From positions 1 to 32,168 of IMG/VR virus record IMGVR_UViG_3300006315_000090: a stretch of 32,168 nucleotides of DNA, one strand, 5' to 3'. Below, piece by piece: positions 5,020 to 13,931 of the stretch. The position numbers and the translations under genes are program-made. The notes under the pieces were generated by a model that was given only the letters and a program-made list of their open reading frames with translations, did not search any database and was not told the DNA's origin. The DNA is from a virus. Every line of letters begins with the position of its first letter. Position 1 is the first letter of the stretch.

Positions 5020-6678
5020 ATGAATGAATTTAACAGGGCGACAATGGAAACAAAGAAAACTGGATTTATAAAATATCATTTACCTTGTCCATTATGTGAG
5101 AGTACTGATGCAGTCTCTCTTAATGGAGATGGTTCAGCTTATTGTTTTTCATGTCAACAATATATAAAGGAATACGATATGGAAACAACACAAACAAATG
5201 GTAATGGTAAGCACGAATATGAAGTAAAAGATTTTGTAAAGTCTTCTGACTTTGCAGAAATTGTAGATAGAAACTTAACTGAACCTACTTGTAGAAAGTA
5301 TGGGGTTAGTGTTAAGATGGATAGTATGGGTAATATAACTAATCATTATTATCCTTATCACGATAAGCAGGGTGCAAAGATTGCAACTAAAACAAGATTT
5401 ACAAAGCTTAAAGAGTTTAATATTCAAGGGAATACAAAGAACTCAGGATTATTTGGAGAACATTTATTCTCTAAAAATAAATTTGTAATAGTAACTGAAG
5501 GTGAGATAGATTGTTTATCAGCTTATCAAATGTTTAAGACTGATAGATATGAAACACCAGTCGTTAGTATTAAGAATGGAATAACTTCTGCTGTTAAAGA
5601 TATTAAAGGAAGTTTAGAATGGTTAGAACAATTTGAAAATGTTATAATTAATTTTGACAATGACGAGCATGGTCGTGAAGGTGCATTAAAGGTAGCTGAA
5701 TTATTTAGCCCTGGGAAATGTAAGATAATGTATCTTCCTGCTGATTTAAAAGATGCGTCTGATTGTTTAACTAAAAATAAATTACAACTTTATCAAAAAG
5801 CATTTTGGAATGCAAAGGTGTATGCTCCTGATGGTATTATAAATGCTAATGTTTTATTTGATGAGATAAGTAAACCAACACTACAAAGCTTTGTTCAATA
5901 TCCTTTTGAAGGATTAAATAAAATTACATATGGATTAAGACCATCTGAACTGGTGACATTTACTTCAGGTAGTGGGTTGGGTAAGACTCAAGTAATGAGA
6001 GAATTGGTCCATCATTTAATAAAACAAACTAAAGATAATATAGGTTTGTTAATGTTAGAGGAGACCCCAGTTATAACATCTAAAGGTATAATGAGTATTG
6101 AAGCTAATCAAAGATTACATTTACCTGATGTTCATGTACCTAAAGAAGAATTAAGAACTTACTTTGATGCAACTGTAGGTACTGGTAGAGTATTTATGTT
6201 TGACCATTTTGGTTCTAACACTATTGATAATATAATTTCTAGAGTTAGATATTTAGCTAAAGGTTTAGACTGTAAGTATATTATTATAGACCACGTTAGT
6301 ATTATAGTATCAGACCAAAGTCATGGAGATGAACGTAGAGCATTAGATGAAATCATGACTAGACTTAGAACTCTCGTACAAGAAACAGGTATAGCTATGA
6401 TAGTGGTATCACATTTAAGAAGACCTGATGGTAAGGGACATGAAGAAGGTGCGGCTACATCTCTATCTCAGCTAAGAGGTTCGGCTTCTATAGGTCAGTT
6501 AAGTGACATGGTTATAGGGCTTGAGAGAGACGCACAGAATGATGACCCTGAAGTTAGGAGTACGACTAAGGTAAGGGTATTAAAGAATAGGTTTGCAGGT
6601 ATAACAGGTCCTTGTTGTGATTTAAGATATGATATGGATACTGGTAGATTGTCTGAGGTAAAGACAGATGACTTTTGA
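5020..6678 (+). CDS. T7 gp4-like DNA primase-helicase
   Basis: All modules of a bifunctional replicative primase-helicase are present. A zinc-binding domain has Cys 23, 26, 42 and 45 (CPLC...CFSC). A TOPRIM domain spans about residues 150-240 with TEGEIDCLSAYQM and NFDNDEHG carrying the metal-binding acidic residues. A DnaB/RecA-like helicase domain has Walker A GSGLGKTQ near residue 318, Walker B YIIIDHVSII near 420, and SHLRRP, QLRGSASIGQLSDMVIGLER and VLKNRFAG near the end. At 552 residues it matches T7 gp4 (566). It synthesises primers and unwinds DNA at the fork together with the polymerase encoded next. Two starts are possible: ATG 5020, immediately after a terminator T-run and without a ribosome site, or ATG 5044 (METKKTGF), which I consider equally likely. 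It overlaps the polymerase gene by 11 bases. Confidence 0.95.
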   Translation: MNEFNRATMETKKTGFIKYHLPCPLCESTDAVSLNGDGSAYCFSCQQYIKEYDMETTQTNGNGKHEYEVKDFVKSSDFAEIVDRNLTEPTCRKYGVSVKMDSMGNITNHYYPYHDKQGAKIATKTRFTKLKEFNIQGNTKNSGLFGEHLFSKNKFVIVTEGEIDCLSAYQMFKTDRYETPVVSIKNGITSAVKDIKGSLEWLEQFENVIINFDNDEHGREGALKVAELFSPGKCKIMYLPADLKDASDCLTKNKLQLYQKAFWNAKVYAPDGIINANVLFDEISKPTLQSFVQYPFEGLNKITYGLRPSELVTFTSGSGLGKTQVMRELVHHLIKQTKDNIGLLMLEETPVITSKGIMSIEANQRLHLPDVHVPKEELRTYFDATVGTGRVFMFDHFGSNTIDNIISRVRYLAKGLDCKYIIIDHVSIIVSDQSHGDERRALDEIMTRLRTLVQETGIAMIVVSHLRRPDGKGHEEGAATSLSQLRGSASIGQLSDMVIGLERDAQNDDPEVRSTTKVRVLKNRFAGITGPCCDLRYDMDTGRLSEVKTDDF

Positions 6679-9236: not shown

Positions 9237-9408
9237 AAAAGATTATGAATCTATATATGATTGTATAGTATCAGACCAAGTATCACCTGATAGAATAAAT
9301 AATTATTTCCAAGATAAAAAATTTTATAAGTATTGGAAAAATAGAAGACAAGAAGATATGGAAATTAATTTATGGGCAAGACTTGGACATTGGAATGCAG
9401 GAAAATAA
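9214..9408 (+). CDS. Small unknown protein (64 aa)
   Basis: ATG 9214 overlaps the exonuclease gene by 23 bases. The product (MVKEKLHKKDYESIYDCIVS, ending MEINLWARLGHWNAGK) is charged, helical and soluble. Nothing in it points to a family. The SET-domain gene starts inside its last codons, so it is part of the same translationally linked run. Confidence 0.6.
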   Translation: MVKEKLHKKDYESIYDCIVSDQVSPDRINNYFQDKKFYKYWKNRRQEDMEINLWARLGHWNAGK

Positions 9409-9721
9409 AGAATTATACAAACCATTACCTGATGATGAATGTATTAAACTTACAATCGCTAAGAGTAAGATACAAGGCTTAGGATTATTTACAAAATTGT
9501 TTGCACCAAAGGGTGTTAATTTTGGTGTGAGTCATTATAAAATTAAAGATGAAATTATTCGTACACCTTTAGGAGGATTTATAAATCACTCGGATAATCC
9601 TAATTGTGAGAAAGTTAAATCATTCGATACAAATTATAGTAAATATAATTTAGTTGCTATACGAGATATAAAAGCATGGGAAGAATTAACTGTTAAATAT
9701 ACTTTTTATAATTTAAAATGA
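9395..9721 (+). CDS. Stand-alone SET-domain protein (putative protein-lysine methyltransferase)
   Basis: With the ATG at 9395 (a TTG at 9383 is the alternative) the protein has 108 residues and is little more than one SET domain. The SET-N motif is KSKIQGLGLFTK (residues 23-34), the SET-C signature is GFINHSDNPNC (61-71), matching the canonical NHS..PN(C) that shapes the methyl-donor pocket, and the end AIRDIKAWEELTVKYTFY (88-105) corresponds to 'Ai.dI.aGEElt.DY' with Tyr 102 in place of the catalytic tyrosine. Two deviations are visible: Trp for Gly before EEL, and Lys for Asp before Tyr 102. Most SET proteins methylate lysines using S-adenosylmethionine; compact viral examples exist. The target here is unknown. 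It lies in the post-replication accessory genes and its stop overlaps the next start (ATGA). Confidence 0.8.
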   Translation: MQENKELYKPLPDDECIKLTIAKSKIQGLGLFTKLFAPKGVNFGVSHYKIKDEIIRTPLGGFINHSDNPNCEKVKSFDTNYSKYNLVAIRDIKAWEELTVKYTFYNLK

Positions 9722-10029: not shown

Positions 10030-10268
10030 TGACAGATAAAAATATGTTTAAAGGAATGACATATGAATCGTTGAATAAGCAGGTAGATGGAAATCACTAT
10101 AGTAATATGAAGATTCAACCAGCAGAATTTATTAATGAAAATAACTTACTCTTTGCTGAGGGTAATGCTATTAAATATATATGTAGACATCAGAAAAAGG
10201 GTAAGAGAAAGGATATAGAAAAAGCCATACACTATTTAGAAATGATATTGGAAAGGGATTATGAATAG
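10029..10268 (+). CDS. DUF3310 family protein
   Basis: The 79-residue protein contains VDGNHYSNMKIQPAEFI, then LLFAEGNAIKYICRHQKKGK and DIEKAIHYLEMILE. This is the standard DUF3310 (SaV-like) pattern 'HY....iqPieFi....l.f.eGN.ikYi.R...K.g..Dl.KA..YLe.l'. The family is widespread in phages and is sometimes labelled a nucleotide kinase, although it has no P-loop and no established reaction. Complete length for the family. Its start overlaps the previous stop by one base. Confidence 0.88.
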   Translation: MTDKNMFKGMTYESLNKQVDGNHYSNMKIQPAEFINENNLLFAEGNAIKYICRHQKKGKRKDIEKAIHYLEMILERDYE

Positions 10269-10590
10269 CGAAGCACAAATAAGACAGTTAGAAAAAAGAG
10301 CAAGAGGTTTTCGTATACTAATTGCAGCATTAAATGACTTATCTATGTATGGAATTAATCCTGCTATAGATAAGATGTTGTTTGTTAGAATTGGTGAACT
10401 TAAAGAACACTTAAAGAAAAAGATAACAAGGAATAATGAAAAGTTAAATGAACATTATACTACAAGTGTTGATAGTTTAACTGATGATGACGGACAATCA
10501 GGAGTGTTGGGAGTTGAGAAAGAATATTTTAAAACTTCTTCAGATGCTGAAGATTTAAGTTACGAAAATGACATCCGAAAAGATATTTGA
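10261..10590 (+). CDS. Unknown phage protein (109 aa)
   Basis: ATG 10261 lies 8 bases inside the DUF3310 gene. The first half is helical with EAQIRQLEKRARGFRILIAA and a basic coil (KEHLKKKITRNNEKLNEHY); the second half is acidic and probably disordered. No family recognised. It overlaps the next gene by 23 bases. Confidence 0.6.
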   Translation: MNSEAQIRQLEKRARGFRILIAALNDLSMYGINPAIDKMLFVRIGELKEHLKKKITRNNEKLNEHYTTSVDSLTDDDGQSGVLGVEKEYFKTSSDAEDLSYENDIRKDI

Positions 10591-11452: not shown

Positions 11453-11656
11453 TTATTCGTCAGTATCTTCCTTCGGTCTAACTTTTCCAAAAATTATTTT
11501 ATAATTCATTTTAATATTTTGTTCCATGTCAGTACTTAAAGGTTTACCTGATACACCTATAGAGTGTCTGGTATTTTCACACCCTGATATTAAAAGGAAT
11601 AAAATACTAAAAAGGAATAGAGTTATATAGCGGACCCACGCATCAATTGTTTTCAT
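11453..11656 (-). CDS. Putative outer-membrane spanin-like lipoprotein (67 aa)
   Basis: The frame is open from 11710, but the Met at 11656 gives a normal export signal: MKTIDAWVRYITLFLFSILF followed by lipobox LISGC. The mature part is short (ENTRHSIGVSGKPLSTD...) and ends with a charged tail. It overlaps the upstream one-TM gene by 14 bases in another frame, the arrangement of Rz/Rz1-type spanin pairs, in which an inner-membrane coil and an outer-membrane lipoprotein bridge the envelope to disrupt the outer membrane at lysis. No sequence family supports this; it rests on topology, size and position near the holin. Confidence 0.5.
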   Translation of the reverse strand: MKTIDAWVRYITLFLFSILFLLISGCENTRHSIGVSGKPLSTDMEQNIKMNYKIIFGKVRPKEDTDE

Positions 11657-11840
11657 TTTTCTTCTTGCGTTTCTTTTTCTTCTTAACATCTTTAAAGTCC
11701 GATACTTCATTTTGAATAGTCGCCACCTTTTCCTTAATCAAAACCATATCTTTTGATATGCTATAAGTTTCCTTTAAATTCCAACCACCTAATGCTAATA
11801 GTATAGCAATCAGGATTGTTATAAGTTTATCATTAACCAT
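11643..11840 (-). CDS. One-TM, basic-tailed protein; candidate inner-membrane spanin
   Basis: The 65-residue product has one N-terminal membrane helix (LITILIAILLALGGW), a short coil (KDMVLIKEKVATIQNEVSDF) and a Lys-rich tail. The start VNDKLITILIAILLALGGWN closely resembles that of the protein at 12292-12549 (TDKIITLLVGVLIALGGWT), so the two are paralogues within one cassette. Overlap with the downstream lipoprotein gene makes a spanin pair possible, though the periplasmic part is short for an i-spanin. Confidence 0.55.
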   Translation of the reverse strand: MVNDKLITILIAILLALGGWNLKETYSISKDMVLIKEKVATIQNEVSDFKDVKKKKKRKKKNENN

Positions 11841-11925: not shown

Positions 11926-12078
11926 CTATTGACAGCTTAAGCATTCGTTTGAATCATCAACGACTACTTCTTTTTCTTTTTTACATTTACAATTTTCACA
12001 GGGACATACTCCATATAAATCAGAGTGTCCTTTAACATTACAATGACAATTGCAATTACAATCTTTACAGTTATCCAT
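11926..12078 (-). CDS. Metallothionein-like cysteine-rich peptide (50 aa)
   Basis: The product has eleven cysteines and two histidines in 50 residues. Cys are at 4, 7, 9, 11, 13, 25, 27, 30, 32, 46 and 49, His at 12 and 18. The pattern is CKDCNCNCHC, a spacer with HSDLYG, then CPCENCKC, an acidic linker and a terminal CLSC. Repeated C-x-C and C-x2-C with no aromatic core other than one Tyr is the hallmark of metallothioneins, which bind Zn, Cu or Cd in thiolate clusters in the cytoplasm. There is no signal peptide. The start lies one base after the stop of the upstream gene (TAATATG), so it is probably translated by coupling in the lysis/Hsp20 operon. A zinc-ribbon protein is the main alternative, but the cysteine density is far higher than needed. 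Confidence 0.7.
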   Translation of the reverse strand: MDNCKDCNCNCHCNVKGHSDLYGVCPCENCKCKKEKEVVVDDSNECLSCQ

Positions 12079-12079
12079 A

Positions 12080-12292
12080 TTATTTTTTTATAATTTTTAA
12101 AATTTTTTTCTGACCCATATAAATTTCAGTCTTAGCTTCAGTTTTAATACAACTGAATACTACTGAATCAGGATTTACTTCTCTCATAGCAACCCTCTTA
12201 CTTTTTAAACATTCGCTTAAAGATTTTTTATATGTGTGCTCTATTACTTGACCATTAAGTGAAAGTAGTAAAGCGAAAACAGTCTCAATCAT
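12080..12292 (-). CDS. Small exported protein (70 aa), unknown
   Basis: The N-terminus MIETVFALLLSLNGQVIEHT is a short hydrophobic export or membrane segment, followed by a basic region with two cysteines (SECLKSK, FSCIKTEAKTEI). Proteins of this form, starting with 'MIE.VFALLLSLNG..IEHT', are familiar from marine phages near holin genes, but no function is known to me. Its start overlaps the stop of the upstream gene by one base (TAATG), and it is immediately followed by the cysteine-rich peptide gene. Confidence 0.65.
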   Translation of the reverse strand: MIETVFALLLSLNGQVIEHTYKKSLSECLKSKRVAMREVNPDSVVFSCIKTEAKTEIYMGQKKILKIIKK

Positions 12293-12549
12293 TAGTAGTT
12301 ATAACTCCCTGTAGGTTTATCATCTTTTTGTAAAGCTTTAAATAAATCTTCATGTTGCTGCATAATTTCTTTATCTTTATCCATCATATCATCCATTTGG
12401 TCTTGTAGTTTTTCAACATATCTTTCTAACTTATTTACTTTATCATTATTTACTGCTTGATTTGTAGATAAATCAAAAGTTCTAGTGAGTGTCCACCCAC
12501 CTAAAGCTATCAATACACCTACTAATAAAGTTATTATTTTATCTGTCAT
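12292..12549 (-). CDS. One-TM coiled-coil protein (85 aa), lysis cassette
   Basis: Begins with a membrane helix (IITLLVGVLIALGGWTLTRT) and continues as a coiled coil (NKLERYVEKLQDQMDDMMDK). Its N-terminus is clearly related to that of 11643-11840. Such proteins next to holins may be accessory holins, pinholin or antiholin partners, or XhlA-like membrane proteins. Start and stop each overlap a neighbour by one base, showing tight translational coupling. Confidence 0.65.
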   Translation of the reverse strand: MTDKIITLLVGVLIALGGWTLTRTFDLSTNQAVNNDKVNKLERYVEKLQDQMDDMMDKDKEIMQQHEDLFKALQKDDKPTGSYNY

Positions 12550-12914
12550 TAATGATTTCCATTAGCAAATTGTCTTTGCTTATCTTTTAATTTTTCTACA
12601 TCAGACTGAAGTTTATTAACTGATTTTTCTAATGCTTGAATATTAATTTTATTATGCATCATGTCATCAACTCTTCCAATTAATTTTTCTTGAGAAGAAG
12701 CAATCATTTCCAACAACATGAATTGCTCTTGGTCTATGGGTTTTTGAGTACTTGCTTCAAGTAAATCTTGTTGCATTAATTGTTTAGAAGTTTCAAGAGA
12801 TGTGAGTCGGCTAGTAATATCAGCCCATGCCCACACACCTGCCGCTACTGCAGCTAAAATACCAATCATATTTTTAATTGGCATAGAAAGTGATGTGTCT
12901 TGTGATAGTTTCAT
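12549..12914 (-). CDS. One-TM coiled-coil protein (121 aa), lysis cassette
   Basis: After a polar start, residues about 14-30 form a membrane helix (KNMIGILAAVAAGVWAWADI), followed by two long coiled-coil stretches (SRLTSLETSKQLMQQDLLEA and ALEKSVNKLQSDVEKLKDKQ). Related in design to the protein encoded next. In the periplasm such coils could bridge towards the outer membrane or oligomerise with the holin. The start overlaps the stop of the 21-residue peptide gene (ATGA). Confidence 0.65.
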   Translation of the reverse strand: MKLSQDTSLSMPIKNMIGILAAVAAGVWAWADITSRLTSLETSKQLMQQDLLEASTQKPIDQEQFMLLEMIASSQEKLIGRVDDMMHNKINIQALEKSVNKLQSDVEKLKDKQRQFANGNH

Positions 12915-12990: not shown

Positions 12991-13356
12991 TTATTTTTTT
13001 CTATTTTTTAATAAACTTGTAACGGATATTCCATAGTTTCCACCGACTACTATAAACACTAAGTAAAGGTAGACTTCAGGAATTTCTTTTAATCTGTTAA
13101 AATAAAATTCAGTTCTATTTAATATTAGTTCATCACCGAAGTAAGAACCATAAGCTAGTATGCCTAATGGTGCTAGTATAAATGCACCTAATATTAAATC
13201 TAAGAATAAAGAACCATTTCGTTTAGCTCTTTCATTTCCAGTAGCCATCTCTTGCATAGCTATTGCGTGTGCTCTGTCAGACTTTTCTTTTCTTCTTGTC
13301 ATAAAAGTACCGACAGCTTTTGAACCAAGTTTAAATAATATATTGTATGGTATCAT
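12991..13356 (-). CDS. Holin of the three-TM gene-transfer-release type
   Basis: The protein starts with an amphipathic basic segment (KLGSKAVGTFMTRRKEKSDR, AHAIAMQEMA) and then has two clear membrane helices, LDLILGAFILAPLGILAYGS and EVYLYLVFIVVGGNYGISV, with a basic C-terminus. The order helix - TM - amphipathic 'NR..FYF.RL..IP' - TM with GG.YG is that of the holin family with three TMs named for gene-transfer-agent release (PF11351-like). It would form the inner-membrane lesion that times lysis. It sits between the Hsp20 gene and several one-TM proteins in one leftward operon. No separate endolysin gene is visible nearby. Confidence 0.75.
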   Translation of the reverse strand: MIPYNILFKLGSKAVGTFMTRRKEKSDRAHAIAMQEMATGNERAKRNGSLFLDLILGAFILAPLGILAYGSYFGDELILNRTEFYFNRLKEIPEVYLYLVFIVVGGNYGISVTSLLKNRKK

Positions 13357-13418: not shown

Positions 13419-13838
13419 TTACTTAATCTTTATTGTCTTAGGTTTTTTCTCTTCAGGTAAGTCTTGATAGAGTTTGATTTTAAGCATTCCATCTTTAAAA
13501 TCAGCATCTTCTACCTTCATATACTCCGAGAGAGTAAACTTCCTTAACACACTTCTAGAAGCAATCCCTTGATGAATCAAGTTATCACTATCCTTTTGTT
13601 CTTTCTTAGCTACAACTGTAAGTATGCCATCTTGCAACTCACACTTGATGTCAGACTTAGAGAACCCAGCTAATGCCATCTCTACCTGATACTTACCATC
13701 CTTTATCTTTCTGATATTATATGGTGGAAAGTTTGAAGTGTTTATCTTAGAGACCTCATTCAATGAATCAAACATTCTATCAAAACCGATAGAGAAGTTT
13801 TTAAATGGGTCAAAATTTATTAAATCGTAATGTGTCAT
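13419..13838 (-). CDS. Small heat-shock protein, Hsp20/alpha-crystallin family
   Basis: The 139-residue protein has the IbpA-type N-terminus (FDPFKNFSIGFDRMFDSL), the alpha-crystallin domain from about residue 38 (PPYNIRKIKDGKYQVEMALA, then GFSKSDIKCELQDGILTVVA) and the signature FTLSEYMKVEDADFKDGMLK with the conserved GML motif, ending in an I-x-I-like tail (KTIKIK). It is full length. Small heat-shock proteins hold unfolding proteins in the cytoplasm and occur in many marine T4-like phages, where they are thought to help capsid folding. A clear ribosome site (AAAGGATTAAT) precedes the start, and it is the first gene behind the perfect promoter at 13903-13931. Confidence 0.92.
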   Translation of the reverse strand: MTHYDLINFDPFKNFSIGFDRMFDSLNEVSKINTSNFPPYNIRKIKDGKYQVEMALAGFSKSDIKCELQDGILTVVAKKEQKDSDNLIHQGIASRSVLRKFTLSEYMKVEDADFKDGMLKIKLYQDLPEEKKPKTIKIK

Positions 13839-13895: not shown

Positions 13896-13915
13896 TTCCT
13901 ATATTATAGTAGGAA
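13896..13915. promoter_or_regulatory. Operator-like palindrome over the -10 box
   Basis: TTCCTA and TAGGAA form a perfect 6-base inverted repeat with an 8-base spacer holding the TATAAT box. It shares CCT-N10-AGG, centred on the -10, with the palindrome at 2170-2187, suggesting one common regulator for both promoters. Confidence 0.55.
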
Positions 13916-13931
13916 TTTCTTTACTTGTCAA
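13903..13931 (-). promoter_or_regulatory. Perfect-consensus sigma70 promoter for the Hsp20/lysis operon
   Basis: On the minus strand TTGACA (13931-13926) and TATAAT (13908-13903) are separated by 17 bases, a match at all twelve consensus positions. The -35 box covers the last codons of the upstream structural gene. Initiation is expected near 13896, about 58 bases before the Hsp20 start. Confidence 0.85.

Follow-up and report, generated by a model that had tools for sequence, protein, structure and literature searches.

The cyanobacterial metallothionein SmtA holds four Zn(II) ions. Bacterial metallothioneins, including SmtA and PflQ2MT, commonly mix histidine with cysteine ligands and bind three to four Zn(II) (PMC10612145), and copper-binding metallothioneins, such as a mycobacterial one, also occur in bacteria (cited in PMC10612145). 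Nothing relevant to a phage, viral, cyanophage or prophage metallothionein was found in the literature, as represented by open-access papers. The gene described here, termed P0001, lies in a 32,168-nucleotide stretch of viral DNA that was analysed as a whole (IMG/VR record IMGVR_UViG_3300006315_000090; hereafter 'the window'), in which a metallothionein-like peptide had been predicted from the letters of the DNA.

The nearest described counterparts of this peptide are the SmtA/BmtA proteins (PF02069; PDB 1jjd), which are chromosomal, whereas the family of P0001 is phage-borne. Both consist of approximately 50-56 residues, employ mixed Cys and His ligands and have the same spacing of CxC, CxxC and CxCxxCxC; however, the phage family lacks the SmtA zinc-finger segment (YCSxxC...GHxxxxxGCGHxGC), and its order of ligands differs, with CxxCxCxCHC placed first and CxCxxCxC second. 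Comparison with PF02069 gave neither an HMM match nor profile homology across the zinc-finger core, the hhalign alignment (probability 5.6%) spanning 13 columns that correspond only to CxCxxCxC. Because that motif is all that SmtA shares, membership in PF02069 fails, and the likeness is probably convergent rather than homologous. The Pseudomonas metallothioneins (PDB 6gv6, 6gv7 and 6grv; PflQ2MT, with three to four Zn) are also small, histidine-containing and bacterial, but unlike the phage family they group with SmtA by sequence.

More broadly, searches of Pfam, NCBIfam, PHROGs and the PDB returned no convincing match to the family: none of the curated metallothionein models in Pfam and NCBIfam matched at E values up to 1, and no PDB chain was matched by family profiles A1, A3 and A4. 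AlphaFold2, which is uninformative for metal-folded peptides, produced coil-like models of low confidence (pLDDT 73 and 63; pTM 0.42 and 0.37), for which Foldseek matches were either meaningless or absent. The peptide is nonetheless small and Cys-rich, with the CxC and CxxC arrays of metallothioneins in the broad sense, and the original prediction is partly supported: a metallothionein-type phage peptide rich in metal ligands stands, whereas no known metallothionein family is matched.

The gene and its relatives

P0001 extends from 12078 to 11926 on the minus strand, a strand that the prediction had left unspecified, and encodes 50 residues (MDNCKDCNCNCHCNVKGHSDLYGVCPCENCKCKKEKEVVVDDSNECLSCQ) between an ATG start and a TAA stop. 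Its translation bears out the predicted composition of 11 cysteines (positions 4, 7, 9, 11, 13, 25, 27, 30, 32, 46 and 49) and two histidines (12 and 18), with the motifs CxxCxCxCxC, CxCxxCxC and CxxC exactly as claimed. The predicted one-base displacement of its frame is likewise found: the stop of the upstream gene (12292..12080) is followed by a single base and then by the start codon (TAA-T-ATG). Cysteine density is by itself no proof of a gene, because non-coding frames of the same AT-rich window contain up to 8-11 Cys per 30-50 codons. P0001 is a real, conserved gene, as established by its many relatives, their intact frames, silent exchanges between TGT and TGC at invariant-Cys codons, and a dN/dS of 0.16-0.34 that corresponds to purifying selection (the latter two from 125 distinct core sequences of the family).

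When the exact peptide was used as a query, 54 relatives were found in IMG/VR; a profile built from those 54 found 126, and a broader profile, which took in distant members from named phages, found at least 298 viral contigs. The search for homologues in pelagiphages and marine viral contigs that had been proposed is thereby answered, since named Pelagibacter phages also match. These include Eyrgjafa EXVC018P (QLF88175.1) and Gjalp EXVC020P (QLF88234.1), where the gene is annotated as hypothetical, while further members are unannotated reading frames in HTVC041P and in the uncultured phage uvDeep1-GF2-KM23-C739. The expectation that so short a gene is easily missed fits its lack of annotation in KT997847 and HTVC041P. 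The Eyrgjafa, Gjalp, HTVC041P and Deep1 members have the common pattern CxxCx[C/H]xCHC....H[SA]DxYGxCxCxxCxC and differ from P0001 in their setting, directly upstream of a capsid gene. The Pelagibacter isolates differ from P0001 additionally by His at position 9 and by a C-terminal DFWK-type tail in place of CxxCQ; the Deep1 member has Cys9 and CxxCQ. A tblastn search of phage records found no match with P0001 as the query but did with a relative, and low-complexity masking probably hides further tblastn matches. The family, present in hundreds of marine viruses, is previously uncatalogued.

The segments of the peptide, as they map onto the window, are the following:

12040..12069, minus strand: N-terminal ligand motif C4xxC7x[C/H]9xC11H12C13 (164 distinct sequences)
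12010..12027, minus strand: H18-[SA]-D20-x-Y-G23 segment, with H18 a probable ligand and D20 and G23 nearly invariant non-ligands
11983..12006, minus strand: second ligand motif C25xC27xxC30xC32, spaced as the CxCxxCxC of SmtA
11932..11943, minus strand: C-terminal CxxC(Q) extension, found in 77/164 (about half of the family)

Ligand patterns were counted across 164 distinct relatives, from scans that select in part for the motif, since each match needed only one of two patterns; the scan pattern H[SA]D..G.C.C places no constraint on positions 4-13. Within a 29-residue core, eleven ligand positions (C4 C7 [C/H]9 C11 H12 C13 H18 C25 C27 C30 C32) are occupied solely by Cys or His, bar one gap each at 30 and 32, an array conserved as ligands with the same partial selection in the scans. 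No variation occurs at positions 4, 7, 11, 12, 13, 25 and 27, each a Cys or a His; position 9 is divided between Cys (76) and His (88); position 18 is His in all but one sequence, which has Cys (163/164); and position 32 is Cys, with His in two. Loss of the Cys pattern among related phages and disruption of the frame had been named beforehand as possible grounds for rejecting the prediction; the pattern proved to be conserved, and no disruption was seen, though the scans favour intact copies. The smallest members, of 32-36 residues, contain 8 Cys and 3-4 His, an example being the 32-residue core member L263 (MKCKKCNHDCHCVEDLHADEYGVCTCDKCECK). An amphipathic, Trp/Lys-rich N-terminal extension (MKKFWNKFVKWLFSWK...) precedes the core in L237, L238, L250 and L257 and suggests membrane attachment of those members.

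Changes within the family were counted on a rough core tree from which codon 9 was excluded (84 bases per sequence), and which indicated: (i) at least four switches between Cys9 and His9; (ii) at least six gains or losses of the C-terminal CxxC arm; and (iii) at least 11 changes of operon context.

Operon and genomic settings

The original prediction placed the gene in a lysis/Hsp20 operon. The corresponding features of the window are as follows:

13903..13931, minus strand: perfect sigma-70 consensus-like promoter before Hsp20 (TTGACA-17-TATAAT, 12/12; consensus match only)
13419..13838, minus strand: Hsp20 small heat-shock protein (PF00011, 9e-17; phrog_432, 2.1e-39)
12991..13356, minus strand: probable membrane protein of the phrog_2524 family (E 3.7e-6)
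12549..12914, minus strand: small membrane protein of the same cassette, phrog_20984 (E 3.9e-37)
12292..12549, minus strand: small membrane protein with a weak Rz-like spanin match, phrog_739 (E 1.3e-4)
12080..12292, minus strand: upstream neighbour, phrog_24646, ending one base before the ATG of P0001
11643..11840, minus strand: downstream gene, Rz-like inner spanin candidate, with an N-terminal membrane anchor and charged tail (no firm family match)
11453..11710, minus strand: overlapping lipoprotein-like gene, outer spanin candidate, with an LLISGC lipobox (Rz-like matches at E 0.17)

On the minus strand, the order of genes is thus Hsp20, phrog_2524, phrog_20984, the Rz-like gene, phrog_24646, P0001 and the spanin-like pair. 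The sigma-70-like site at 13931..13903 is a candidate promoter for the P0001 operon, and no terminator-like site was found between it and P0001. The two genes at 11453-11840 overlap out of frame, as an Rz/Rz1-like spanin candidate lacking a firm family match. Elsewhere in the window, a SET-domain protein is encoded at 9383-9721 (PF00856, 1.1e-9), with a similar reading frame in L190. The predicted operon holds for the window, in that Hsp20 is recognised and lysis genes are plausible (the phrog_739 match, and a C-terminal Phage_lysozyme domain in a 1385-residue protein), but it is not general, many relatives being situated behind a DNA polymerase or before a capsid gene.

At least three kinds of operon are in fact represented: lysis/Hsp20 (as in the window), downstream of DNA polymerase, and upstream of a capsid gene. 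A simple sorting rule applied to 174 loci, near-identical contigs included, assigned 88 to the position behind DNA polymerase, 45 to the lysis type, 14 to the capsid type and 27 to others. In 158 of 171 loci the upstream neighbour is read in the same direction, and it often overlaps or abuts the family gene; in 68 loci the immediate upstream neighbour is a PurM-like gene of 216 residues (phrog_3704). A link to ferredoxin was considered and rejected: the upstream gene matches phrog_3704 'ferredoxin', but it lacks a Pfam match and other records label it PurM, so no argument was based on the name. One 216-residue relative (L190:7358-8008), which has no Pfam match, bears the name 'ferredoxin' in RefSeq and PHROGs but 'PurM' in GenBank, and both names look unreliable. 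In HTVC027P, the slot directly behind the PurM-like gene is filled by gp12 (CxxCGH...HHVH...CAHCDC; L278:5641-5799), a tiny CxxC/His/CxxCxC protein that is five residues shorter between its motifs and has no detectable homology to the family (hhalign 0.7%), so that its identification as a degenerate member is not supported.

The marine phage setting that had been proposed agrees with the kinship of the window phage to Pelagibacter phages HTVC103P and HTVC104P. These nearest named phages possess Hsp20 and a similarly ordered set of the small-gene families of the window, but lack the metallothionein-like gene; the phrog_24646-like gene of HTVC103P directly adjoins the one that follows it downstream. 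Of the 78 loci for which phrog_24646 served as the anchor, only 7 contain a family member (in fetched flanks, some of them short), and the gene is therefore accessory.

Two further observations concern its neighbours and termini. In 16 loci (L037, L044-L046, L048, L053-L055, L154, L155, L161, L165, L170, L173, L182 and L190), another small gene rich in thiols (C[CN]xxHxKEKxxxGTCCQ...) lies directly downstream and overlaps the metallothionein-like gene; its L190 copy matched no family, and the two together look like a Cys-rich cassette. Separately, the motif [ML][ST]YEN[ED] recurs at the termini of several small phage proteins that are otherwise unrelated (in 22 of the 2252 neighbour proteins, compared with 2 when shuffled), including the C-terminus of the protein at 10261-10590 of the window (DAEDLSYENDIRKDI), the tails of 30 metallothionein-like members and the N-terminus of HTVC033P gp29 (DUF3310), and is possibly a shared docking tag.

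Metal binding and candidate functions

Repeated exchange between Cys and His is what zinc ligands would be expected to show; it speaks for metal coordination, probably of Zn(II) rather than Cu(I), and against disulfides. The family very probably binds metal, of the zinc type, and P0001 itself is read, with somewhat better than even confidence, as a metallothionein-like buffer or carrier peptide. It would be a cytoplasmic peptide, built from the 29-residue core with an added C46xxC49 arm, that may wrap approximately three to four Zn(II) via thiolates and imidazoles much as SmtA does. During infection, SAR11-type hosts without a known metallothionein would thereby acquire a new zinc pool of high affinity. 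Its most probable use would be to store and redistribute the zinc set free when host proteins are degraded or inactivated, and to supply or protect phage zinc proteins, such as that with the primase zinc domain CPLC...CFSC (window 5020..6678). Two features speak against a buffer: the minimal members of 32-36 residues have enough cysteine for only two or three ions, and D20 and G23, which a simple buffer would not need, are conserved to the same degree as the ligands.

Those features fit a second, less probable though still tenable reading, in which the peptide is a compact structural adaptor with two or three zinc ions, whose H-[SA]-D-x-Y-G surface would bind a partner in, for example, the polymerase, the membrane or capsid assembly. 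The conservation of G23 (164/164) and D20 (162/164), with Y22 common, exceeds what a pure metal sponge requires, and therefore keeps such an adaptor a live rival. The small size of the minimal members is in its favour, as are the N-terminal extension of L237, L250 and L257, which appears as if membrane-targeted, and the presence in HTVC027P of another small protein, of the form CxxC...CxxCxC, directly behind the same PurM-like gene. On the other hand, the 11 Cys and 2 His of P0001 exceed the needs of two structural sites, no zinc-finger family matches, and the repeated gain and loss of the CxxC arm is more readily explained by a variable capacity than by a fixed interface; in addition, because operon context has changed so often on the rough tree, no single partner gene accompanies the family.

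A metallothionein that sequesters Cu(I) or a toxic metal is improbable. Its thiol density would be suitable, and the bacterial copper metallothioneins provide a precedent; invariant His12, nearly invariant His18 and the exchange at position 9 nevertheless appear to favour Zn(II), and among the annotated neighbours none was recognised as a copper or efflux gene. A thiol redox protein, acting as reductant or disulfide carrier in lysis or capsid maturation, is more doubtful again: CxxC motifs are present, and spanin-like lipoproteins (in the window) or capsid genes (in Autographiviridae) lie nearby, but repeated replacement of Cys by His is incompatible with a redox pair at position 9, no redoxin HMM matched, and a signal peptide is not evident in most members. 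A chance Cys-rich reading frame, conceivable given the cysteine content of the non-coding frames, is ruled out by conserved relatives, low dN/dS and recurrent operon positions.

Origin and biological meaning

The presumed host of the window phage follows from its kinship to HTVC103P. Among 297 genomes of that host order, the only one matching the family was a single Pelagibacteraceae assembly, on a phage contig, and among 399 genomes of the host phylum the same assembly was again the only match. Because that contig is full of phage genes, an origin in the host was rejected; no cellular relative of this phage-born family was found in either set. In the 297 host-order genomes, no protein scored above the cut-off for PF02069, with Synechococcus elongatus serving as the positive control. 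The occurrence of the family in hundreds of marine viruses, and not in the bacterial hosts searched, suggests that these phages introduce a zinc-handling peptide of their own into the cell.

Standard protein libraries lack the family, yet at least 298 viral contigs carry it, as do cultured Pelagibacter phages. SAR11-type hosts live in zinc-poor water. It may be proposed, tentatively and at less than even confidence, that a phage-born metallothionein family is common to marine phages, many of which probably infect SAR11, and that they use it to take over the zinc pool of the host during infection. Should several Zn(II) be bound, the peptide would be a viral auxiliary protein for trace metals, in hosts for which no metallothionein is known. 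If the proposal is true, viruses would encode metal buffering for cells that themselves lack a metallothionein, and lysis would be a possible route by which peptide-bound zinc is released to seawater.
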